NCBI RefSeq assembly: GCF_000507845.1
Contig: NZ_KI669454.1
Coordinates: 62,001 to 126,000, forward strand
Direction: 5' to 3'
Length of the DNA: 64,000 nt
Source: Helicobacter macacae MIT 99-5501
Lineage (GTDB): Bacteria; Campylobacterota; Campylobacteria; Campylobacterales; Helicobacteraceae
Shown here: in pieces, positions 2-62,402 of the stretch
How positions within the stretch are numbered: position 1 is the first letter of the stretch
How the letters are laid out: the number at the start of each line of letters is the position of its first letter
Notes under the pieces: generated by a model
Seen by the model: the letters and a program-made list of their open reading frames with translations, nothing else
Told to the model about the DNA's origin: nothing
The model's database searches: none
Translations under genes and position numbers: made by a program

Positions 2-1282
2 ACCGCATTTTATAATCCCCCTGTGTCAGAGCAAGAAATCAAGGAGGCTAGAGAAAATATCGCGTATTTGCTAGCACAAAACAAAAACCTTGAAGCAAAA
101 GATTTTAGTAATTTTGCTGATGAATGGCTGCGAGATAGAGTGATTTTGGGCGTTATGGGGAGGCTTGCCAAAATCGATTCTATGGATTATTTGGAAGTGA
201 TTTGTGAGATATTACAGAGGCGAGAAGAGTGTGTGTTTGTCGCGTGTGGTGCAGGAAATGAGGAAGTCATCAAGTCCAAAATCTCACAAATAAATCCTAG
301 TGTCTTGTCGCGGTTTTGCTTCACGGGGCAGATAGATAGTGCGGTGTATGGGCATATCATTGATGTGTGGCTAGATAGTTTTCCTATGGAGCAGGGGGAG
401 AGCAGAATCGAGTATATCGCCAAAGGTAAGGGGCTTGCGCTAAGGTATTATGCGTGCGATGAGGAGGAGTTTTTGAGCGAGGTGGGGGGGCAGGTAGATG
501 GTGTGGAGTGGGTGGTGAGGGAGGTTTTGAGTGATTTGTCTTTTGGTGGTTGGGGCAATTTATCTTTGGGGAGCGGGGGCAATTTGCCTGCGGGTATCCA
601 TTTGAGTGGTTGCAATTTGCCTTCGGGTGATTCATTTGAGAAATCTCACTGTCCCGCTTCGCTCGATGAACGCGAAATGTTCTATCTACGCTCGCAGGGC
701 AATGAGATTTCCCAAAGCAATACCGCAAATACTTCGATTGTGGTGGGGAATGGTGGGCAGAATTTGCAAAAAAACACAATCTCTTGTCATACTGAGGCTT
801 TAGCCGAAGTATCTCAAAAAAGCAAGCCTAGTGAAGCCTCTTTGGAAAGCGAAGATTCTTTAGAAAGCAAACACGACACGGATTCTTTGGAATCCAAGAA
901 CAAGGGATATTTCGCTAACACTCAATATGACGAAACTACTTGCAATGGTCAAAACAAAGAGAGCGAAACTACTAATGGAAATAAAGGGGACGGAAGCAAC
1001 ACATATTCCCCCTCCATTGCGGAGGGGGTTAGGGGGTGGGTAGGCTCTTACGCCAAAGATTTTACAAGCTATAAATCCCTTGTTTTGGGTTTTAGCCAAA
1101 CAAGAGCTTTTAGCAAAGAGCAATACCTCCAAAAAGCCCTAAATATCATAGATTCTACAAAAACAAAGAATAAAAACTTCCAAAATATGCTGCGCACACA
1201 AAGCCTTATTTTTGCTATGGGGGATTGCATAAAAGAGCGATTGGGCGTGAAATACTTTATGGACTTTGTAGATTATGTTTAA
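2..1282 (+). CDS. GT-B glycosyltransferase, C-terminal part (5' cut by window edge), with in-frame repeat insertion
   Basis: The frame is open from the first bases of the window, so the true start lies upstream; GTG at 23 is only an internal candidate. The N-terminal part has the look of a GT-B C-terminal half: a strand-turn segment RVILGVMGRLAKI, then FTGQID, then DSFPMEQGESRIEYIAKGKG, which matches the nucleotide-sugar binding loop (FP..GES..E..AKGK) of family 1/4/41-like enzymes. After about nucleotide 571 the protein runs through a hydrophilic segment of some 160 residues encoded by a dispersed repeat, then returns to a helical C-terminus ending at FMDFVDYV. It precedes a polysaccharide operon, so a role in glycan assembly is inferred. 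The acceptor and sugar are unknown. Confidence 0.7.
   Translation, partial: TAFYNPPVSEQEIKEARENIAYLLAQNKNLEAKDFSNFADEWLRDRVILGVMGRLAKIDSMDYLEVICEILQRREECVFVACGAGNEEVIKSKISQINPSVLSRFCFTGQIDSAVYGHIIDVWLDSFPMEQGESRIEYIAKGKGLALRYYACDEEEFLSEVGGQVDGVEWVVREVLSDLSFGGWGNLSLGSGGNLPAGIHLSGCNLPSGDSFEKSHCPASLDEREMFYLRSQGNEISQSNTANTSIVVGNGGQNLQKNTISCHTEALAEVSQKSKPSEASLESEDSLESKHDTDSLESKNKGYFANTQYDETTCNGQNKESETTNGNKGDGSNTYSPSIAEGVRGWVGSYAKDFTSYKSLVLGFSQTRAFSKEQYLQKALNIIDSTKTKNKNFQNMLRTQSLIFAMGDCIKERLGVKYFMDFVDYV
571..1043 (+). repeat. Translated dispersed repeat, copy 1
   Basis: This stretch is closely similar to 60751-61217 in the same orientation and the same reading phase. The best conserved core starts with GGTGGGCAGAATTTGCAA near 752 and includes the block encoding CHTEALAEVSQKS. 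It ends with a GC-rich palindrome (CCCCCTCC, short loop, GGAGGGGG) followed by TTAGGGGGTGGGT at 1029-1041. Copy 1 carries about 36 extra bases in its first third. Both strands remain largely open across it. It splits the glycosyltransferase without breaking the frame. Confidence 0.85.
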
Positions 1283-32011: not shown

Positions 32012-32101
32012 TTTGTCATATTGAGCGTAGCGAAATATCTCAAAAAATAACCCCAAAAAATATGCGAATAGAGATATTTCGCTACGCTTAAGTATGACAA
32101 A
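32012..32101. repeat. Palindromic dispersed repeat in a convergent gap
   Basis: Left arm TTGTCATATTGAGCGTAGCG continuing AAATATCTC (32013-32041) pairs with the right arm 32071-32100, with one or two mismatches over about 29 bases. The loop of 29 bases contains AAAAAATAACCCCAAAAAAT. The same element, inverted, is at 41797-41885. The left arm is related to the translated block encoding CHTEALAEVSQKS. The rest of 31943-32274 shows no gene. Confidence 0.85.
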
Positions 32102-41777: not shown

Positions 41778-41796
41778 GGGTTTTGTATTTCACTTT

Positions 41797-41885
41797 TTGT
41801 CATACTTAATCGAAGCGAAATATCTCTATCTGCATATTTTTGGGGGTTATTTTTTGAGATATTTCGCTTTACTCAAATATGACAA
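41797..41885. repeat. Palindromic dispersed repeat in a convergent gap (inverted copy)
   Basis: Arms at 41797-41826 (TTGTCATACTTAATCGAAGC followed by GAAATATCTC) and 41856-41885 pair around a 29-base loop. The loop is the reverse complement, with a few mismatches, of the loop at 32042-32070. So this is the same element in the opposite orientation. Confidence 0.85.
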
Positions 41886-41920
41886 GAAGTCGCTACGATT
41901 TTACTTGCGAAGTTTTTTAC

Positions 41921-44976: not shown

Positions 44977-47472
44977 GTGGGACAGAAAATGTGGCAAAAA
45001 GTGGAAAAAATGAAATCTTTTCTCAAGTCTATAATCACGTTTACTAGGGCTAGTGTGGATAGGTTTGAGGGCGCACTTGGGAGCGTGATTGGAAGTGGGG
45101 TGAAAGTCCTAGCTATGTTTGGGCTAGCACTTGGTGTTTTTTCTTTGTGCGTGTTTTTTAGCGTGTCGCTTTTGAGAGAAAATCTAAGCCAAAACATCGC
45201 TTCAAAATCCGCCCAAAATCTTACAGCAAGTCCCAAAGTCCTAAAAATTGCATATAGCCAAAATGTCGGTGCGCTAAATCCGCAGGGATATAACAAAAAC
45301 GCTATGTTTGCCCAAAATCTGCTTTATGAGGGACTGCTAAAGGCGGATAAAAACGGTGCGATTATCCCAAGCCTAGCGACTTCTTTTGCCCTTGATACAA
45401 GTGGCAAAGTCTATATTTTTTCCCTGCGCAAGGGCGTGAGATTCTCTAATGGCGAGGAGTTCAACGCCGATGCGGTGGTGCTAAATTTTGCCTCGATTCT
45501 CAAAAATCGCGCTAGGCATTCGTGGAGCGGGCTAGCTAGGGCTTTGGAGCGGGCAGAAAAGGTAGATGACTACCGCGTAAAAATCGTGCTAAAAGAGCCC
45601 TACGCACCCACGCTAAATGAGCTTGCATTGCCTCGTCCTTTTAGATTTCTAGCCCCTAGCGCGTTCCCGCCTGATTTAGACTTAGTCGCGCAAAACCCAC
45701 AGCCCATAGGCACGGGCTCATATATGCTCGTAGAATCCAAGCTCGGCTCTTATGATAAATTCGCCAAAAATCCGCACTATTGGGACGCTAAGCGACTAGA
45801 GGAGCAGGGCGGGCTATACTATGATGAGGTGGTAGTCAAAGTCATATTTGAGCCAAACTCCAAGCTAAGTGCGCTACGGGCGGGGCAGGTGGATATGATA
45901 TATGGCGCAGATGAGATTCCTACAAGGATTTTCCAAGAGATAAGAAATGAGGAGCTAAAAAGTGCGGTGGCACAGGGCTTGAGCGTGCAAAATGGAGTGT
46001 CGGAAAATGCAGGTGGAAATGGGGGGGCGAGAAATGATAGCGCGCAAAATAAAGTAGTGGAAAGTGCGGGCAAAATCAATGCCGTGCGTGGCGATAGTGG
46101 CAAAAGCCCAAAGTTTCGGGCGTATCTTGGGCAGGCTTCTTTCGCCACAAGCCTTATGCTAAATTCCACGCGCATAAAGCAAGCCCAAATCCGCAGGGCA
46201 ATAGCCCTAAGCATAGACAAAGATACACTGATAAACGCGGTGTATGGCACAAGTGGTGGTGTAAGCGGTGGCGATAGTGGCGAAATCGGTGCGAGTGGCA
46301 AGAGTGGTAATGGCGGTGGTGGGGATTGTAGTGTGGATTGTGGTGCAAATCGTAGCGATGAAAGCGGTGCAAGCCCTACAAACACCACAACAAACACCGT
46401 ATCAAGCCCCATAGCAAGTGTCGCGGAGAGCATTTTTGTGCATACGCGCGTTGTTCCCCCCTTGCTTGCAGATAATATGCACATTGCCCCCTCCTCGCCA
46501 AACATAAATGGAGCTAGTGCGGAGGATAAGCACACTATTTCCCCCTCGCTAGCGACAAATGCGCCAAATCACGCTACAAATACCCCTCCCCAAGCCCTTT
46601 CTCAAATATCTTCTGCAAGGGGAGGGGCTTCCTCTATTTCCCCCTCCTTTGCGGAGGGAGCTAGGGGGTGGGTGGATTCTAGTCCAAAAGATATTGCCAC
46701 ACAGCCACAAACTCGCCAAAATCCCCACCACAATCCAGAATTTAAACCCCAAAATCCTAAAAACCAAGCCCCACAAAACCAAATTTCGCCAACTAAAGCC
46801 AACTCAAGCCAACCCGCGCAAAGCAAGCAAAATCTAATCACTCAAAACAATGCTTCACAAAAAGAGCAAAATCTCTATCAGCAAAATCTCACAAAAGCCC
46901 GTGAGATTCTCGCCTCATTTGGCTACACGGCGGAAAATCCACTAAAGCTAGAGCTGTTTTTTTTCGGTGATAAGCCAAGCCAAAAAATGCTTTCCCAAAT
47001 CCTCCAATCCCAGCTAAAAGAGGCAAATATCGCTCTCTCCGTGCGCGGGCTTGAGCCAAGTATGTATGCTAATGCGCTAAGGAAGGGCGAGTTTGATATG
47101 GCGTTTGTTGATTCGTGGGGTGCGCCTTATGAGCCGCTATCCCAGCTCTATTCCTACACCAAGCCGCTTGGGCACGGGGACTATATCGCCCAAAGTGGTT
47201 TGAAAGAGAAGTCGCGCATTGACGCGCTTATCTTACAGGCTATCAAAGAGTCCGCTTCTGTGGCAAACTCCGTGCAAAATCCACAAAATCTAGGGAAAAA
47301 ATCGCGAGCACAAGCCCTAAGCGATGAGGCGATAGAGCTGCTTATCCAAAGTGGCGTGTATATCCCGCTGCTGATTGAGCGAAGCAAAGCAGTCGCACAC
47401 TCGCGCATAAGGGGCGTGGAGAGCGTGAGTAGCCTAAGCTATGAGATTCCTATATGGGATTTTTATGAGTGA
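44977..47472 (+). CDS. Nickel/peptide-type ABC transporter substrate-binding protein with large insertions
   Basis: Family 5 extracellular solute-binding protein: LKIAYSQNVGALNPQGY, YEGLLKADKNGAIIPSLATSF, FSLRKGVRFSNGEEFNADAVVLNF, PIGTGSYMLVESK and YDEVVVKVIFEPNSKLSALRAGQVDMI. The C-terminal lobe has FDMAFVDSWGAPYEPLSQLYSY. This resembles NikA/NikZ proteins of Helicobacter and Campylobacter. Start GTG 44977 (AAGGGACGCA upstream). A membrane anchor VLAMFGLALGVFSLCVFFSVSLL follows about 40 residues. At 831 residues it is far longer than the usual 500. A Gly/Asn-rich insertion lies at about 338-377, and one of some 210 residues at about 422-631 includes the translated-repeat fragment SPSFAEGARGWVDS. 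Confidence 0.85.
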   Translation: MGQKMWQKVEKMKSFLKSIITFTRASVDRFEGALGSVIGSGVKVLAMFGLALGVFSLCVFFSVSLLRENLSQNIASKSAQNLTASPKVLKIAYSQNVGALNPQGYNKNAMFAQNLLYEGLLKADKNGAIIPSLATSFALDTSGKVYIFSLRKGVRFSNGEEFNADAVVLNFASILKNRARHSWSGLARALERAEKVDDYRVKIVLKEPYAPTLNELALPRPFRFLAPSAFPPDLDLVAQNPQPIGTGSYMLVESKLGSYDKFAKNPHYWDAKRLEEQGGLYYDEVVVKVIFEPNSKLSALRAGQVDMIYGADEIPTRIFQEIRNEELKSAVAQGLSVQNGVSENAGGNGGARNDSAQNKVVESAGKINAVRGDSGKSPKFRAYLGQASFATSLMLNSTRIKQAQIRRAIALSIDKDTLINAVYGTSGGVSGGDSGEIGASGKSGNGGGGDCSVDCGANRSDESGASPTNTTTNTVSSPIASVAESIFVHTRVVPPLLADNMHIAPSSPNINGASAEDKHTISPSLATNAPNHATNTPPQALSQISSARGGASSISPSFAEGARGWVDSSPKDIATQPQTRQNPHHNPEFKPQNPKNQAPQNQISPTKANSSQPAQSKQNLITQNNASQKEQNLYQQNLTKAREILASFGYTAENPLKLELFFFGDKPSQKMLSQILQSQLKEANIALSVRGLEPSMYANALRKGEFDMAFVDSWGAPYEPLSQLYSYTKPLGHGDYIAQSGLKEKSRIDALILQAIKESASVANSVQNPQNLGKKSRAQALSDEAIELLIQSGVYIPLLIERSKAVAHSRIRGVESVSSLSYEIPIWDFYE
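46590..46678 (+). repeat. Fragment of the translated repeat inside the binding-protein gene
   Basis: CCCCCTCCTTTGCGGAGG followed by AGCTAGGGGGTGGGTGG matches the GC-rich 3' end of the repeats at 571-1043 and 60751-61217 and is read in the same phase (SPSFAEGARGWV). The upstream part is only loosely similar. Confidence 0.7.
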
Positions 47473-49417: not shown

Positions 49418-52400
49418 TTGCAAAATATCATCTATGGCATAAATGGGCAAGATTCACTCTTTGAGTTTATCGGCGCAAAGATTTTTGAGAAAAATCCAAA
49501 TGCCACGCTTAAAGAAGTCTATGAAAACGCGCTTTATTTTATCTTTCGCTTACTTTTTATTGCGTATTTTGAGGATAAGTTTGGCGATATTTTGCAAAGC
49601 CACGAGTATTTCACAGATGAGATTAGCCTAAGCAATCTAATTGGGAATCTAGAGGACAAAGAGGAAAGTTTCAGGGGCTTTGTGAAGTTAAGCAGAATCT
49701 TTGCTATGTATGATAAAGGCGAGCCAAACTACAATATGCCCGTGTTTAATGGAGGGCTTTTTGATAGCACAAAAGCCCCGCTTTTATCCACCCAAAAGCT
49801 TTTTAGTGATAAAAGTCTAAAAGAGATTTTGGGGAAGTTTTTTTATTTTGATGATGGGCAGGTGCTTTTTAGGCGTGATTATAAATCTTTGAGCGTGGCG
49901 CATTTGGGCACGATTTATGAGGGATTGCTAGGGTATTTTTTTGTCATCGCAGATGAGGACTTGTGGTATGTGAAATACTCTGCCAAAGGCAAAAAAGGCG
50001 AGGTGCAAAAAGAAATCGAAAGCTATGTGGATAGCTATGATTTTGCAGAGTTGCAAAAGAAAGAGAAACTAAACAAAGCTAAAATCATCGGTGCGCCAAA
50101 GCACTATGCAAAAGGGCAGATTTATCTCAAAAACACGAGCAATTCACGCAAATCAAGCGCGAGCTTTTATACGCCTCAAAGCATTACGAGCTTTTTAGTC
50201 GCACAAAGCCTAAAAGATGAGAACGGTAAGCATAAGCTAGACAATGATAATATTTTGCACTTTAAGATTTTGGATAATGCCTGTGGGAGCGGACACTTTC
50301 TCATCGAAGCCCTAAATCAAATCACGCAAATCGTATTAAAGGATTTTGACTCCTTTTCTAACTTAAAGCAAATCTATGAAGCCGAAAAGCAAGAAATCCA
50401 AGCCAACACCACGCACTATATCAAAGGCTATGAAGTCGATGAAAGCGATATTTTGAAGCGACTTTTGCTAAAGCGCGTAATCTTTGGCGTGGATATAAAT
50501 CCCTTTTCAGTAGAGCTTACCAAACTTTCCCTTTGGATAGATAGCTTTATCTTTGGCACGCCACTTAGCTTCATAGAACATCATATCAAGTGTGGCAACG
50601 CGCTTGTGGGTAGCACTATCGCTGAGTTTAGGGCGCATTATGATACTATCAAAAACAAAGGCTCGCTTTTTATGAATGAGTTTTTGAAAGATTTTGGGGC
50701 TTTAAGCGAAGTGTTTGACAAGCTAGACTGCCTAAAGGACACTTCAGAGGCGCAAATCACCCAATCTAAGCGCATTTATACAGATGAGATTCTCCCCACG
50801 CTAGATAAGCTCAATCTCTATCTAAACTTTTTCACCGCATTTCGCTTTGCTACTCCTAGTGAGTGCAAAAAGTTTGCAAGCCTAATAGAGCTAGAAAATC
50901 TCCTAAGTGAGCAAAAGGGCGACTACAAAGACGCTGCAGACTTCACGCGTGAAAAGGCAAAAGATTTTAGCTTTTTTAATTATGAAATCGAGTTCCCAGA
51001 GATTGTGCTAAATGGCGAATTGCAGGGATTCCAAGCCATAGTTGGCAATCCCCCGTGGGATAAAACCAAATTTAGCGATAATGACTTTTTCCCACAATAC
51101 AAAAGCGACTACCGCACACTAGGCAACAAACAAAAAGCCGAGTTTGAGGCAAATATGCTTGTCAAACCCACGATAAGAGAGGACTATGAAGCACAAAAGC
51201 AAAGCATAGAGAGGATAAATGCCTACTACAAAACGCGCTTTGGCTTAAGTAGGGGCAAGGGCGATGGCAATCTTTTCCGCTTCTTTGTCGAGCGCAATTT
51301 AGGGCTTTTAGCTCACGATGCCACGCTTAATTATGTCTTGCCAAGTGCGTTAATGCTAGAAGAGGGAAGCTATACTTTACGCAAAGAGATTTTACAAGAG
51401 CGCACACTTACGCACTTCTATGCTTTTGAAAATAGAGAGGGGATTTTTAATAGCGTTCATCGTAGCTACAAATTCGCGCTAATGCAGGTAAAAAATGCCA
51501 AGCCACCCCAAAACCACCGCATAAAGACAATGTTTTATAAAACAAAGATTGATGAAATCTATGAGCGCGATAATGTCATAGAGCTTAGCCTTGCGGATAT
51601 AGAGGGCTTAAGCCCTGCTCATCTTGCCCTCCAAGAAGTGCGAGATAAAAGGGATTTGGAGATTTTGGGGAAATGCTATGGGCGATTTGCCCCGCTAGAA
51701 TCTTCGTGGCTTGATTTTCGCAATGAATTGCATATGACAAAGGATGAGAATTTGTTTATCGATGAGGCGGATATTGATGATTTGTATATATCTCATTTTG
51801 AGGTTGCAAAGCAACCGAAAAATCTAAATGATAGCGCGGACTCTGTGGATTCTTCGCTCCACGCTATGCGCTACGCTCAGAATGACAAAAACTTAGCAAA
51901 GCATTATCTCCCACTCTATGAGGGCAAAAGGATTCATCAATACAACGCCGAGTTTGAAAACCCTACTAAAAAATCCAGCGATAAGCGGTATTTTTTGGAA
52001 ATCACTTCCTTTGATGAGCGACTAAAAAGCAAGGAAATCTCGCGTCTAAAAGATGATTTGGGTATAAAAGGCGAGGAGTATAAAGCCCTTTTGAAATCGC
52101 TTTTTGCAAAGCATTGTGAGGATAGCAAAGCTCACAAAACAGCCCATTGTCATTCTGAGGGAGCAAAGGAGGCGAAGAATCCAAACAGCGCAAATTCTAC
52201 CCACCCCCAAACCCCCTCCGCCACAATTTCATCATCTAGGGAGGAGGATTTTGATTCGTTAGATGCGTTTGAATCTAGCCTTATCTCTTATGATAGAGAG
52301 TATATTCGGCTTGGATCTCGCGCTATTGCGAGTGATACAAATGAGCGGACACTGATTTTTAGCCTTTTGCCAAGAAATATTGGGGTTGGAAATAGCGCGT

Positions 52401-52888
52401 GGAGCAGTATCACAAAATCTTATGTTCTAGATTCAGGACGGATTTGCACTAAGCCTATAAGCCACATAAGGCTTTGCTTTGCGCTAGGGATTTTAAACGC
52501 TTTGGTTGTGGATTTTATCGCTAGGATGATGATACAAATGAATGTGAATAAGACTTACTTGGAGCGACTGCCACTCCCACAGCCTAGCGATGATGAGATT
52601 TTGGCTAATGAGTGCTATGTCTTTATCGCTAGAAGTGCGCTTATCTTGCAGCTCTATAATGACAAGGCGGGCTACTTTGATGAGCTAAAGTGTGAGTTTG
52701 GGATAAAAAATGATGAGATACCAAGCACCAATAAGCTCTACCTCACGCTAAAAGCGCGACTAGACATCGCGGTGGCAAAGCTCTATGGGCTAGACTTTGA
52801 GGACTTTTGCTACCTTTTAGAATCTTTCCAAGTCCTAAAGACAAACCAACCCGAATACATCGCTTTGCTAAAAGGGGAGTGGAAGTAG
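49418..52888 (+). CDS. Type IIG restriction-modification enzyme 1, methyltransferase and specificity part
   Basis: 1,156 residues counted from TTG 49418, which has no ribosome site; the natural start is 48625 with a 12-C tract. ASFYTPQSITSFLVAQSL and LDNACGSGHFLIEALNQI (SAM motif I, about residue 286) and GNPPWDKTKF (motif IV, about 544) mark an N6-adenine methylase of the Eco57I class. The C-terminal third should hold the target recognition domain (INPLERLPLPQ-like VNKTYLERLPLPQP). Two dispersed-repeat fragments are translated inside it, at 51847-51890 and 52148-52223. It would methylate and cut an unknown site when in frame. Confidence 0.85.
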   Translation: MQNIIYGINGQDSLFEFIGAKIFEKNPNATLKEVYENALYFIFRLLFIAYFEDKFGDILQSHEYFTDEISLSNLIGNLEDKEESFRGFVKLSRIFAMYDKGEPNYNMPVFNGGLFDSTKAPLLSTQKLFSDKSLKEILGKFFYFDDGQVLFRRDYKSLSVAHLGTIYEGLLGYFFVIADEDLWYVKYSAKGKKGEVQKEIESYVDSYDFAELQKKEKLNKAKIIGAPKHYAKGQIYLKNTSNSRKSSASFYTPQSITSFLVAQSLKDENGKHKLDNDNILHFKILDNACGSGHFLIEALNQITQIVLKDFDSFSNLKQIYEAEKQEIQANTTHYIKGYEVDESDILKRLLLKRVIFGVDINPFSVELTKLSLWIDSFIFGTPLSFIEHHIKCGNALVGSTIAEFRAHYDTIKNKGSLFMNEFLKDFGALSEVFDKLDCLKDTSEAQITQSKRIYTDEILPTLDKLNLYLNFFTAFRFATPSECKKFASLIELENLLSEQKGDYKDAADFTREKAKDFSFFNYEIEFPEIVLNGELQGFQAIVGNPPWDKTKFSDNDFFPQYKSDYRTLGNKQKAEFEANMLVKPTIREDYEAQKQSIERINAYYKTRFGLSRGKGDGNLFRFFVERNLGLLAHDATLNYVLPSALMLEEGSYTLRKEILQERTLTHFYAFENREGIFNSVHRSYKFALMQVKNAKPPQNHRIKTMFYKTKIDEIYERDNVIELSLADIEGLSPAHLALQEVRDKRDLEILGKCYGRFAPLESSWLDFRNELHMTKDENLFIDEADIDDLYISHFEVAKQPKNLNDSADSVDSSLHAMRYAQNDKNLAKHYLPLYEGKRIHQYNAEFENPTKKSSDKRYFLEITSFDERLKSKEISRLKDDLGIKGEEYKALLKSLFAKHCEDSKAHKTAHCHSEGAKEAKNPNSANSTHPQTPSATISSSREEDFDSLDAFESSLISYDREYIRLGSRAIASDTNERTLIFSLLPRNIGVGNSAWSSITKSYVLDSGRICTKPISHIRLCFALGILNALVVDFIARMMIQMNVNKTYLERLPLPQPSDDEILANECYVFIARSALILQLYNDKAGYFDELKCEFGIKNDEIPSTNKLYLTLKARLDIAVAKLYGLDFEDFCYLLESFQVLKTNQPEYIALLKGEWK
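51847..51890 (-). repeat. Translated fragment of the dispersed repeat in restriction enzyme 1
   Basis: On the minus strand it reads TTGTCATTCTGAGCGTAGCG, then a few bases, then GAGCGAAGAATC, the same layout as the palindromic repeats. It is in frame in the host gene (DSSLHAMRYAQNDK). Confidence 0.7.
52148..52223 (+). repeat. Second translated repeat fragment in restriction enzyme 1
   Basis: TTGTCATTCTGAGGGAGC and GGCGAAGAATCC (52148-52182) are followed at 52198 by TACCCACCCCCAAACCCCCT, the reverse complement of the GC-rich end of the repeats at 1021-1043 and 61196-61217. So the GC-rich end is inserted here in the opposite orientation and is still open in frame. Confidence 0.7.
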
Positions 52889-54603: not shown

Positions 54604-54653
54604 GGGGGCGGTGGTTTTTGCTGTTTTTGGGCTTTTATAATCTTGTTGTTTCT

Positions 54654-54791
54654 TTGTCATTTTGAACATTCGCAAAAATGCGAAAAAATCTCTATGTGGC
54701 TTTTGTCATTCTTGGTTTTCGTAAGAAAACGAAGAATCCACTAAATCTATGCCCTTTGAGATACTTCGGGCTTTGCCCTCAGTATGACAAG
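54654..54791. repeat. Cluster of dispersed-repeat units in a convergent gap
   Basis: Three units lie side by side. TTGTCATTTTGAACATTCGC is at 54654. TTGTCATTCTTGGTTTTCG followed by GAAAACGAAGAATCCA is at 54703-54740. The minus-strand unit CTTGTCATACTGAGGGCAAA plus GCCCGAAGTATCTC is at 54791-54758. The last closely matches the translated block encoding CHTEALAEVSQ in the glycosyltransferase and ABC ATPase. The rest of the gap 54604-54937 has no gene. Confidence 0.75.
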
Positions 54792-54937
54792 ATAAAGTGT
54801 TGTATGTCAAAAGTGGAAAGCGTTATGACAAGGTGGAGTGTCAAGTGATAAAAAAACCTTAATTATGGCAAGAAGTGGTGTGTCAGTATGACAAAATAGT
54901 ATGCTTTGGTTTGTGAGTCTTAATTTGCCTTAGTTTT

Positions 54938-58968: not shown

Positions 58969-60027
58969 ATGATACAACCAAACACACCGCAATCTAGCAC
59001 ACAAAGCACAAATCCCCCCGATAGTCCCAACAGCCCACATAGTCAAAAGGCTACACCCACACAAAATAAGCCCACAAATCCCACGCCACGCAAATCCTCG
59101 CAAAGCAAAATCGTGCAAGACAAAATCCCACCCAAAGCCACAAAAACCACACAAACTATGCTCCCCAAAACGCAAGCTAAAGCCACGACAAAAACAAATC
59201 ACACCAAAGTAAAGCGGCTTAGCCTGCTTGGCAAATGCGCGTTTTTCGCGCTCGCAGTTATCGTGCTTGGTGCGGTGTTTTTGCCATTTTTTGCGCCTTA
59301 TTCGCCTGATTTTATGGATTTGGATAGCATACTCTCTCCCGCCTCAAGTGCGCATATTCTGGGCACTGACCATTTGGGGAGGGATATTTATACGCGGCTT
59401 ATTTTTGGTGCTAGGCTCTCACTTGGCTCGGTGGCGATTATCCTAGCACTTGTGCTAGCACTTGGCATCGGTATCGGCTCGGCTTGCGCGCTCTATGGTG
59501 GGCGCGTAGATAGTGTGGTTATGCGGGTGTGTGATATGTTTTTGTCTATGCCTACGGCGGTTTTGTCCCTGCTTTTTATCGCTGCTCTTGGCGTGGGGCT
59601 AGCAAATGTCATCATCGCCATCGCGCTTACGCACTGGGCGTGGTATGCCCGCCTTGTGCACTCACTTTGCTTAAGCCTAAAAAGCAAGGAGTTTGTGGCA
59701 CTTTTCGCCGTGCAGGGGGCGAGCAAATGGCAAAGCTACAAGGCAAATATGCTTACTCCCATAGCGAGCCAATGCCTAGTGCTTGCCACAATGGATATAG
59801 GGCATTTTATGCTGCATATCGCGGGGCTGTCCTTTCTAGGGCTTGGCGTGCAAGCACCGCAGGCAGAATGGGGCGTAATGCTAAGCGAGGGCAAGGAGTA
59901 TATGTGGAGCAATGCCGAGCTGCTGCTCTATCCCGGGCTAGCACTCTTTGTGTGCGTGGCGGTGTGCAATGTGCTGGGTGATAGCTTGAGGGATTACTTT
60001 GATGTGAATGTGTGGGAATCAAAATGA
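58969..60027 (+). CDS. Nickel/peptide ABC transporter permease (NikC/DppC type)
   Basis: 352 residues. A cytosolic N-terminus of about 85 residues is low complexity (Thr, Pro, Lys, Ser, Gln), unlike the usual short one. The DppC/NikC core follows: FFALAVIVLGAVFLPFFAPYSPDFMDL, HILGTDHLGRDIYTRLIFGARLSL, VIIAIALTHWAWYARLVHSL, and the signature HIAGLSFLGLGVQAPQAEWGVMLSEG. AAAAGGCAAGAA precedes the ATG. It overlaps the ATPase gene by 4 bases (ATGA), so they are co-translated. Partner permease is at 53668. Confidence 0.92.
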   Translation: MIQPNTPQSSTQSTNPPDSPNSPHSQKATPTQNKPTNPTPRKSSQSKIVQDKIPPKATKTTQTMLPKTQAKATTKTNHTKVKRLSLLGKCAFFALAVIVLGAVFLPFFAPYSPDFMDLDSILSPASSAHILGTDHLGRDIYTRLIFGARLSLGSVAIILALVLALGIGIGSACALYGGRVDSVVMRVCDMFLSMPTAVLSLLFIAALGVGLANVIIAIALTHWAWYARLVHSLCLSLKSKEFVALFAVQGASKWQSYKANMLTPIASQCLVLATMDIGHFMLHIAGLSFLGLGVQAPQAEWGVMLSEGKEYMWSNAELLLYPGLALFVCVAVCNVLGDSLRDYFDVNVWESK

Positions 60028-62402
60028 GAAAATCTAATAACTGCGCGGTGCGAAGTGAGAGTGCGACTAAGGGTGCAAATTCGCCCAAAAGCCTAGAGTT
60101 GCGCAATCTCTGCATAGCAAATGGCGATAGGATTTTGCTAGAGGGTGTGGGGTTTGAGATAGTCGCGGGGCAGACTACCGCGCTTATTGGTGCTAGCGGT
60201 TCTGGCAAATCCCTAAGTGCGCTCGCCCTGCAAGGAATCATAGCGCGAAACCTTAGGCGCATAAGTGGCGAGGTGCTACTAGATGGGCGTGTGCTAAATG
60301 AGCGCGAGATAGCGCAGGGGCGCGGGAAGCTCTACTCAAGTATCTTGCAAAATCCGCGCACTTGCTTCAATCCGCTTCTAAGCCTAAAATCCCACATAAA
60401 AGAGAGCCTAAACGCGCTAGGCAGGGAGTATGTGAGCGATGAGGTGGAGTCTGCCCTGCGCGAGGTGGGGCTAGAGAGTAGCGCACTTTTCCACTATCCG
60501 CACGAGCTAAGCGGGGGAATGCTGCAAAGGGCGATGATAGCTATCTCGCTACTTAGCGGGGCGCGATATATCATCGCTGATGAGGCGACTACGGACTTGG
60601 ATATGGTGGTGGAGAGGAGGATTTTGGAACTACTAAAGAGGCTGCAAAAAGCGCGAGGACTAGGCGTGCTGCTGATAAGCCACGATAAGAAAGTAGTAGA
60701 GTTTATGAGCGATAGGGTGTGTAGGATTGAGCGGGGGAGAATGTGTGGGAGTGGGGGCAATTTGTCTGCGGGTATCCATTTGGCAAATCCCTCCGCCCCG
60801 CTTCACTGCGGCGCACACTTAAGTGCGCCTCATTCGCAAGGCGAAGCGATTTACCAAAGCAACACCTCACATACTTCGATTGTGGCGGGGGATGGTGGGC
60901 AGAATTTGCAAAAAAACACAATCTCTTGTCATACTGAGGCTTTAGCCGAAGTATCTCAAAAAAGCAAATCTAGTGAAGCCTCTTTGGAAAGCGAAGATTC
61001 TTTAGAAAGCAAACACGGCACGGATTTTTTGGAAGCCAAAAATAAGAGATATTTCACTAACACTCAATATGACGAAATTATTTGTTGCAATAGCGGAAAC
61101 AAGGAGAGCGAAACTGCTAATGGAAATAAAGGGGACGGAAATAACACGCATTCTAGCCCCTCTGTGCGGGGGCTACACTCTTCCCCCTCCCTTGCGGAGG
61201 GGGTTAGGGGGTGGGTAAAATCCTGTGATAACAAGCAAAACGCACTCATCGCGCATAATGTAAGCAAATCTTTTTCGCGCTACACACTCTTTGGCAAGAG
61301 AGAAAAGCGCGTGCTGTCCTCCGTGTCTTTGCGCGTGGGGGAGAGGGAGCGTGTGGCACTGCTAGGCAAAAGTGGCTCGGGCAAAAGCACGCTAGCAAAG
61401 ATTTTAAGCGGGCTAGAGGGCGTGGATTTTATGCCAAATACGCCTAAAAATGACAGCGCGAAATCTGCAAAATCTAGTGCGAAGTGTGAAGCCAAAACTC
61501 ACGGTCTGCATAATGAAGATTCAGAATTTAAAGCAGATTTTGGTGGGGTTGCCCGTGAGTTTAGACAGAATTTTGGCAAGGAGTTTAGCGGGGGTTTGAG
61601 TGCGGATTGTTGCGCGGGACTAGGTGGAGAATTTAGCGCGGATTTGCGCGGTGGGGTGTATCTCAATGGCAAAGAGATTTGGCACACAAAGCCTCGATTT
61701 GCGCGGACAAAAAACACAGGGCGGAAAAACACAGGGCTGGAAAATGCGAGCGTAAAAAATGCGTGGATAGAAAATCCTAAAAATCTGCTGGCAAAGATTT
61801 TTAGCCCGATAAACGCGAGCACAAATAACGCCGATAAAAGCGAGCAAAGCAACGCGATTAACCTCTCAAACCTCGCACAGCGTAGGGAGTTTTATAAGCA
61901 AGTGCAAATCCTTTTCCAAGACCCGATAGGCTCGCTAAATCCGCGCCTAAAATTGCGCGAGTCGCTATGCGTGCCACTGCGCTACTTGCTAGGCTTGCAA
62001 GATAGGCAGGCACAAGAATCGCGGATTTTGCCTTTGCTAGCGCGTCTAGGGCTAGATGAGGGACTGCTAGAGGCTTATCCTGCTATGCTTTCTGGCGGGC
62101 AGGCGGCGAGATTTTGCCTAGCGCGTGCGCTGCTAGCGCGTCCCAAATACATCATACTTGATGAGAGCACTTCTAGCCTAGATGAGCGCGTGGAGGGCGA
62201 GATACTCGCACTTCTAAAAGAGCTGCAAGAGGAGGAGGGGCTAGGTGTGTTGCTTATCACACATAGTGCGAGGCTTGCGAGGAAGTTTTGTGAGAAAATC
62301 TACATAATGGAGTGCGGGGAAATCATCGAGGAAGTGCATAGTAGCGGGGCTTTTAGGAGTGATTTTGGGGCACAGCTTGATAGGCTTAGTGGGTTTGTGT
62401 AA
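60024..62402 (+). CDS. Fused double ATPase of the nickel/peptide ABC transporter, with translated repeat in the linker
   Basis: 792 residues from ATG 60024 (ATGA overlap with the permease). Domain 1 (about 1-240) has ALIGASGSGKSLSA, HELSGGMLQRAMIAISLL and YIIADEATTDLD. Domain 2 (about 405-792) has ALLGKSGSGKSTLAK, LSGGQAARFCLARALLARP and YIILDESTSSLDERVEGE, plus LFQDPIGSLNPRL. It thus corresponds to NikD-NikE or DppD-DppF in one chain. The linker is replaced by about 155 residues encoded by the dispersed repeat 60751-61217. A second hydrophilic insertion of roughly 130 residues (61430-61860) sits between Walker A and the Q-loop of domain 2. All ATPase motifs remain, so the protein may still work. 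Confidence 0.88.
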   Translation: MRKSNNCAVRSESATKGANSPKSLELRNLCIANGDRILLEGVGFEIVAGQTTALIGASGSGKSLSALALQGIIARNLRRISGEVLLDGRVLNEREIAQGRGKLYSSILQNPRTCFNPLLSLKSHIKESLNALGREYVSDEVESALREVGLESSALFHYPHELSGGMLQRAMIAISLLSGARYIIADEATTDLDMVVERRILELLKRLQKARGLGVLLISHDKKVVEFMSDRVCRIERGRMCGSGGNLSAGIHLANPSAPLHCGAHLSAPHSQGEAIYQSNTSHTSIVAGDGGQNLQKNTISCHTEALAEVSQKSKSSEASLESEDSLESKHGTDFLEAKNKRYFTNTQYDEIICCNSGNKESETANGNKGDGNNTHSSPSVRGLHSSPSLAEGVRGWVKSCDNKQNALIAHNVSKSFSRYTLFGKREKRVLSSVSLRVGERERVALLGKSGSGKSTLAKILSGLEGVDFMPNTPKNDSAKSAKSSAKCEAKTHGLHNEDSEFKADFGGVAREFRQNFGKEFSGGLSADCCAGLGGEFSADLRGGVYLNGKEIWHTKPRFARTKNTGRKNTGLENASVKNAWIENPKNLLAKIFSPINASTNNADKSEQSNAINLSNLAQRREFYKQVQILFQDPIGSLNPRLKLRESLCVPLRYLLGLQDRQAQESRILPLLARLGLDEGLLEAYPAMLSGGQAARFCLARALLARPKYIILDESTSSLDERVEGEILALLKELQEEEGLGVLLITHSARLARKFCEKIYIMECGEIIEEVHSSGAFRSDFGAQLDRLSGFV
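60751..61217 (+). repeat. Translated dispersed repeat, copy 2
   Basis: Aligns with 571-1043 from the block GGGGGCAATTTG and TGCGGGTATCCATTTG to TTAGGGGGTGGGTA, in the same reading phase. A stretch of about 70 bases starting GGGCAGAATTTGCAAAAAAA at 60897 is identical to the one at 755. It includes the unit TTGTCATACTGAGGCTTTAG linked to CGAAGTATCTCAAAAAA, which is related to the intergenic palindromes. Confidence 0.88.

Follow-up and report, generated by a model that had tools for sequence, protein, structure and literature searches.

Two blocks of similar DNA, each lying in frame within an unrelated gene of the window (the whole 64,000-nucleotide stretch of Helicobacter macacae DNA analysed here), are very probably nests of small palindromic elements that occupy protein linkers and belong to a dispersed family, a nest or part of one having presumably been copied from one gene to the other. 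We propose that several such elements, the main one an inverted pair of REP-like hairpins often with a spacer of preferred length, would have inserted in frame into protein linkers and become dispersed, between as well as inside genes, in a subset of Helicobacteraceae. Copies landing in a linker in an open phase would encode a hydrophilic stretch and, since folding of the host protein is not prevented, would be kept; filled linkers would gather further elements and therefore become nests; and a nest, or part of one, may be copied from gene to gene by recombination between shared modules. The elements would thus move as DNA, and their products would presumably be tolerated as disordered linkers.

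By blastn within the window, positions 569-604 match 60747-60782 at 94% identity, 604-1014 match 60749-61162 at 84.5% over 418 aligned columns (E ~1e-125), and the 26 bases of 1017-1042 are identical to 61192-61217. The sequence-only reading of this DNA had reported a long similar block in a glycosyltransferase and a fused ABC ATPase, with about 70 identical bases, in the same orientation and phase, in hosts that remain intact on both sides, and with the ATPase copy in an inter-domain linker. It proved correct on each point: the longest identical run in the alignment is 76 bases (window 750-825), the two blocks share orientation and codon phase (785 and 60927 are first codon positions of their respective ORFs), the six glycosyltransferase relatives that were aligned resume on both sides of the insert, and ABC domains flank the second block on either side (Table 1). 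Its further remark that both strands are largely open across the block stood in part, with a minus-strand ORF of at least 100 aa listed over 384-779, whereas 780-1043 and 60750-61220 have no such ORF listed. The glycosyltransferase-like host had no Pfam match at 0.01, and of its 46 relatives found one (P0134) carries PF13844; relatives of the ATPase bear names of the peptide/nickel type. The left part of the block, module A, is a different variant in each gene, and the shared block is therefore a mosaic. Identity runs through the spacers as well, which argues for a common descent of the nests in block form; the simplest route would be recombination between genes that had a module in common beforehand. 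With the insert region alone as query, a protein search returned six proteins, all already among the relatives found, and a first scan of the insert peptide against named genomes gave two loci, in H. muridarum and H. magdeburgensis. Plasmid and phage records held nothing matching 569-1043, and the sole window match to known RNA families at the gathering threshold was a tRNA, with none at the repeats. A second in-frame insertion, bearing a 10-base inverted repeat (AAACTCACGG/CCGTGAGTTT), occupies 61495-61562 inside the second ATPase domain of the ABC host and is missing in P0012 and P0013.

Table 1. Hosts, nests and repeat modules located in the window
Feature	Positions	Strand	Basis or remark
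Host 1, glycosyltransferase-like ORF	2..1282	+	named by relatives; N-terminus outside window
Host 2, fused double ABC ATPase	60012..62402	+	PF00005 in 3 stretches; relatives P0004-P0030
In-frame palindromic module nest, host 1	569..1042	+	blastn and alignment; missing from six aligned relatives
Module nest, inter-domain linker of host 2	60747..61217	+	blastn and alignment; ortholog linker comparison
Module A palindrome (..SFEKSHCPASLDEREMFYLRSQGNEISQS..)	640..718	+	fold of 630-728, z -2.1; 3/200 shuffles as good
Variant palindrome at module A position, host 2	60775..60865	+	z -3.5; similar peptide in P0006
Hairpin arm B, host 1, read as CHTEALAEVS	785..814	+	arm pattern
Hairpin arm C, host 1, inverted partner of B, read as YFANTQYDE	905..932	-	arm pattern
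Module D hairpin (CCCCCTCC-attgc-GGAGGGGG + tail), host 1, read as SPSIAEGVRGWV	1008..1040	+	z -3.0
Arm B, host 2	60927..60956	+	arm pattern
Arm C, host 2	61047..61074	-	arm pattern
Module D hairpin, host 2	61183..61215	+	sequence
Intergenic complete inverted doublet of B-C arms	32013..32099	.	DNA fold z -8.7
Second intergenic doublet, opposite orientation, 90% identical to first	41796..41885	.	z -6.2
Intergenic arm	54759..54789	-	inside cluster of arm-like sites 54655-54893
In-frame arm pair, Eco57I-type restriction-modification ORF (49418-52888)	51791..51887	.	51791-51825 (+) by pattern
In-frame arm (CHSEGAKEAKNP), same restriction-modification ORF (49418-52888)	52148..52221	+	module D tail reversed at 52194-52221
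Module D in frame (SPSFAEGARGWV), solute-binding protein ORF (44977-47472)	46638..46673	+	blastn

The simplest form of B-C is that of the two intergenic doublets, in which two inverted arms make one long hairpin. Intragenic copies in the window are more diverged than these doublets, and those that fold better than shuffled sequence are module A, its variant and module D of host 1. The B-C doublets of both nests, in pieces cut to 150 bases, fold like shuffled DNA (z 0.01 and -1.5); the fold of the restriction-modification arm at 52148-52221 is not above shuffles (z +1.5), nor are those of 46600-46680, around module D of the solute-binding ORF (z -0.1), and of 51848-51890 (z -0.1), where the arm pattern misses a reverse arm with a long apical loop near 51848-51887. 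The blastn search within the window also matches module D at 46638-46673 and 52194-52221 and arm-like sequence at 54755-54801, 32013-32047 and 41850-41887. The same or a nearly identical module A peptide occurs in ABC proteins P0004, P0005, P0008 and P0010-P0013 and in M16 peptidases P0129 and P0148. Between two convergent ORFs, 54640-54893 forms an intergenic cluster of several arm-like sites. The solute-binding ORF encodes 831 aa with SBP_bac_5 in three stretches, and long low-complexity stretches flank its module D.

Two REP-like hairpins in inverted orientation make up the core module, each arm having the form TGTCAT-NN-TGAG-(apical stem-loop)-CGAA-N'N'-ATCT. A hairpin spans about 27-39 bases and comprises the TGTC tag, AT as first stem pairs, a covarying dinucleotide, a tandem G.A step and the apical stem-loop, whose length is 5-13 bases in sampled arms and up to 17, the limit of the pattern, in the genome scan; the tail is CT and then variable. 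The dinucleotides NN/N'N' covary (AT/AT, TT/AA, TC/GA, AC/GT, GT/AC) and are complementary in 108 of 124 arms, against 30 on average and at most 50 in 10,000 shuffles, and in 53 of 66 unique arms, against a shuffle maximum of 29. A relaxed search that freed four inner positions per side and required NN pairing found TGAG/CGAA in 74 of 113 unique matches and TGAA/TGAA in 8, the latter being a compensated change beside the G.A step. Tandem G.A is stable in DNA in a Py-GA-Pu setting. The hairpin unit is under constraint. Its TGTC tag and AT stem start largely follow from how the search pattern was written; when the first base was freed, T was found in 192 of 192 arms (five groups, two overlapping), and the window's arms C carry CGTC. 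Inverted pairs have preferred spacers, of 17 bases in genome G041, 20 in G055, 26 in G060 and 90 in both window nests, and in most pairs of the first three genomes the tags point outward. Genome G086 favours the opposite orientation, the tags pointing inward in most pairs, with spacers of 7-12 bases in 10 of 19.

Orthologs of the host genes differ in whether they are filled, and by what. Between two fixed marks, the ABC linker is 83 residues long in P0026-P0029; it spans 108-220 residues in 22 other relatives, P0004-P0025, and modules were located in 15 of these 22 by motif search, and related or other repeat-like peptides were recognised by eye in the linkers of the other seven. Nor do all relatives carry the segment, the prospect that the sequence-only reading had set against mobility: the glycosyltransferase insert is absent in 6 of 6 relatives aligned, and the ATPase linker is short in P0026-P0029. 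The ABC orthologs hold differing module sets in the same linker, with B-C absent from P0005, P0006, P0008, P0010 and P0011 and A absent from P0009. The polyprenyl synthase genes of G041, G042 and G038 have a net 192-bp stretch next to the arms that the gene of G039 lacks; in G039 the arm pair has decayed with the frame kept. The HypF linker has one arm pair common to G041 and G039, and the large palindrome next to it differs. Modules A, B and C are found together once more at the N-terminus of M16 peptidase P0129, and as variants in P0148 and P0164.

It is this last arrangement, with A, B and C in the same order and with related spacers in the glycosyltransferase, the ABC ATPase and P0129, that would be expected if A plus B-C, perhaps with D, formed one compound mobile element of about 400-470 bp that inserted as a unit. 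Such an element is unlikely, however, in view of orthologs of one gene that at one site have A without B-C (P0005, P0008, P0010, P0011) or B-C without A (P0009), of B-C doublets that stand alone between genes, and of D alone in another host. The single 470-bp mobile repeat envisaged in the sequence-only reading was thus abandoned, since modules A, B-C and D occur apart and, among orthologs, each may be present or missing whatever the state of the others.

Among forward arms in which frames 0 and 1 are both open, frame 0 is used in 52 and frame 1 in 1, a count that treats arms singly, those in one gene not being independent. Part of this bias is imposed by the spacer, because 31 of 38 intragenic doublets have one frame open throughout, which is the frame used; of the remainder, 5 are open in two frames, of which frame 0 is the one used, and 2 use frame 1. 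Intergenic doublets have no forward open frame in 12 of 16 cases. By inspection, the frame used is the hydrophilic one (e.g. CHxERSExS, DISxxAQYDK). Between the window nests dN/dS is 0.65 in frame versus 0.52 in shifted frames, so that the frame is kept while the peptide sequence seems free, and selection on the insert peptide found no support. An AlphaFold model of the ABC host, of low confidence (mean pLDDT 38.7) even in conserved parts, was left unused. The strong preference for one hydrophilic frame (52:1), together with retention in housekeeping genes across sister species, might be taken to mean that the added peptide gives its host some function in spacing, regulation or binding; we consider this very unlikely, as in-frame dN/dS is no lower than in shifted frames, unrelated modules swap at the same linker, and the hosts are without evident common function.

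The elements are enriched between genes per base, yet more than one third lie inside ORFs in the samples of G041 and G060. An even sample of 400 kb from G041 (20 x 20 kb; ORFs of at least 120 aa, called by length only and covering 78%) contained 45 arms, 19 internal, 25 intergenic and 1 at an edge; ten chosen stretches of G060 (185 kb) contained 54, of which 21 were internal, 32 intergenic and 1 at an edge. A seeded sample of 190 arms came from regions around matches to one intergenic element of the window, ten genomes being searched and G041, G055 and G086 read, with sites in G043, G081, G054 and G060 left out of the ORF count. Arms were here 6 internal and 2 intergenic in the window, 58 internal, 7 edge and 31 intergenic in G041, 23, 0 and 6 in G055, and 11, 8 and 38 in G086, for ORFs of at least 80 aa that were called by length only and some of which may be spurious. 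A scan for Pfam domains covered 30 host ORFs (20 of 25 from G041 and 10 of 11 from G055, three G086 hosts being left out) and found them in 29. The proteins, named from these domains, include HypF, polyprenyl synthase, P-type ATPases, MurJ, DXS, a RadA-like ATPase, a CmoB-like methyltransferase, FolP, a HolB-like subunit, Der, glycosyltransferases and restriction-modification enzymes.

Housekeeping hosts are filled without losing their frame, as two of them illustrate. Each of 8 genomes has a single Der C-terminal domain and one DXS match above 300 bits, weaker DXS matches reaching at most 64 bits. Arms inside Der, which sit between its two GTPase domains, number one each in G041, G038 and G042 and two in G039; DXS contains three in each of these four genomes. 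No arms lie inside Der or DXS in G003, G060, G055 or G043. In the arm-filled genomes the Der ORFs are of 679-690 aa and the DXS ORFs of 820-851 aa, compared with 468 and 485 aa for Der and 619 and 623 aa for DXS in arm-free G003 and G060. The arms explain only part of this extra length and other insertions contribute, because the Der of G055 (536 aa) and the Der and DXS of G043 (637 and 758 aa) are arm-free yet longer than those of G003. The hosts are, judging from their sequences, probably working genes. That they are instead pseudogenes or misassemblies, in which palindromic arms happen to keep ORFs open, is highly improbable: most forward arms do have two open frames, and proteins P0141 and P0153 look like joins at repeats, but module-bearing orthologs of the window's ABC protein lie on many separate contigs, single-copy Der and the one strong DXS match stay open in the four genomes where they hold arms, and the polyprenyl synthase insert is the same in three sister genomes, while a fourth keeps a decayed arm pair at that site. 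P0141 joins a UvrC part, repeats and a glycosyltransferase C-terminus, and P0153 a peptidase part, repeats and the same C-terminus; these could be products of recombination at nests, or assembly errors.

Similarity to the block is not limited to the two genes of the window, a restriction that in the sequence-only reading would have pointed to gene conversion and not to a family. Parts of 571-1043 match in at least 36 of 121 Helicobacteraceae genomes (E <= 0.001; a lower bound, with five candidates scored per genome), nearly all of the matches listed covering one module, and the exact arm pattern occurs in 42 of 120 genomes of the family, while the reversed control gave 0 in every genome. Arm copies number 352 in G060, 152 in G041, 138 in G038, 127 in G039 and 118 in G119, followed by G042 (113), G117 (85), G047 (70), G048 (68) and G037 (68). 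Among 298 genomes drawn from the order the pattern was present in 10, four of them also in the family search and six new to it (G138, G169, G239, G313, G331 and G353, with 1-6 arm copies each). Module D, found by exact pattern in 6 of 120 genomes, is less widespread than the arms. Gene conversion or recombination alone, copying a chance linker from gene to gene with no mobile family behind it, would account for identity that spans the spacers between modules, the 76 identical bases included, and so for the likeness of the nests, but not for arms dispersed through many genomes and hosts; as a full account it is scarcely credible and was rejected on the ground of that dispersal, and it is retained as a step within the favoured explanation.

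Among known systems, translated palindromic repeats are described above all from Rickettsia (PMC2229807, PMC10969869), and the sequence-only reading had drawn this comparison. In mode of working the likeness holds: as described for the Rickettsia palindromic elements, and also for coding palindromes of Wolbachia and Methanocaldococcus, copies are found both in frame within many unrelated conserved genes and in the DNA between genes, a genome can have several families, and the sites are described as typically non-structured segments (PMC2229807, PMC10969869, PMC2996958). Here, likewise, a palindromic family is dispersed in relatives (the window's own genome being represented by 64 kb only), and copies stand in frame in unrelated conserved genes, both in the scanned hosts with Pfam domains and in those of the window, within linkers. 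The Helicobacter elements differ, in a comparison made by description only, in belonging to another phylum, in having as core two paired hairpins whose stems covary, and in that different palindromes fill the same linker in orthologs. The CGTC-tagged REP class, to which RPE-4 and RPE-6 of R. conorii are assigned, offers a second likeness, in that TGTC is a stated variant of its tag, stems start with AT, hairpins are short, and intragenic dimers and clusters are described, with no dedicated transposase reported (PMC3733652). Its members are, however, characterised by stems of 8-9 bp, loops of 4-5 bases and a tail that is mostly CCA (PMC3733652), whereas the Helicobacter stems are interrupted by the tandem G.A, the apical part is of 5-13 bases in sampled arms and the tail is CT plus variable bases. 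Dimers of that class are predominantly head-to-head (PMC3733652). Because stem, loop and tail do not fit, membership was not assigned, although tag and stem start agree; the main text of that paper has 0 occurrences of Helicobacter (PMC3733652). By analogy, then, the Helicobacter repeats would work like Rickettsia palindromic elements or intragenic CGTC REPs.

Other comparisons are looser. PARCEL sequences are also palindromic coding DNA, with Helicobacter hepaticus among the carriers described, but they form tandem arrays of an amphipathic repeat in particular ORFs and not dispersed single inserts in linkers (PMC2996958). That tandem repeat of H. hepaticus is the nearest Helicobacter report found (PMC2996958) in a literature search in which, in keeping with the sequence-only reading, dispersed in-frame palindromes in Helicobacter were not found; subscription papers lay mostly outside its scope, and it is weak evidence of absence. 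Small non-autonomous repeats such as Correia/NEMIS, ERIC and YPAL have open frames that can be fused to genes (PMC2229807); for the Helicobacter arms, by contrast, no parent insertion sequence was identified. Comparison with orthologs, from which the sequence-only reading had hoped for target-site duplications, did separate filled from empty sites, and the single filled/empty pair aligned (polyprenyl synthase) had no clean duplication. With REPINs the arms share inverted REP doublets with preferred spacers (here peaking at 17, 20 and 26 bases) that look like units of spread (PMC3116915, PMC2817692). They differ in the many copies inside genes and in their relation to the Y1 transposase domain of RAYTs (PF01797), which was detected in 28 of 120 genomes and, among the ten richest in arms, only in G119, as one weak match (44 bits, model positions 19-120); PF01797-positive G116, G045 and G065 have 1-3 arms. 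A RAYT-driven REPIN is thus unsupported, and filing the elements under REPIN/RAYT was rejected because no transposase is consistently alongside. Across the 120 genomes of the PF01797 scan, no dedicated mobiliser consistently accompanies the arms. Genomes G007, G012 and G033 have 15-23 Y1 transposase matches and no exact arm pattern.

Part of the Helicobacteraceae thus appears, by analogy, to tolerate mobile-looking DNA inside proteins much as Rickettsia does. If so, a second lineage with REP-type hairpins in Der, DXS, MurJ, a HolB-like subunit and numerous other genes would provide an independent case for asking by what means such DNA moves, what makes proteins tolerant of it, and whether new linkers or fusions arise from it. 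A wider reading, which we advance only tentatively, is that in some Helicobacteraceae linkers are zones of turnover, in which those of many single-copy housekeeping proteins would be filled, swapped and re-filled by several palindromic families through a non-Y1 activity, while recombination between nests of different genes would spread blocks and, as P0141 and P0153 suggest, fuse gene ends; new protein architecture would then keep arising from the repeats. For annotation, the strings CHxERSExS, xYFANAQYDK and SPSLAEGVRGWV in Helicobacter proteins should be taken as repeat DNA and not as domains. A further repeat of about 180 bp lies in the HypF gene of G041 (L107:2211-2400), and dozens of copies, mostly at 75-88% identity, are listed in G038, G039 and G042. 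The window itself contains other short repeat pairs of 86-93% identity, at 14582-14615/35042-35074, 11151-11178/11601-11628, 12381-12415/38503-38539 and 50481-50514/56709-56742.
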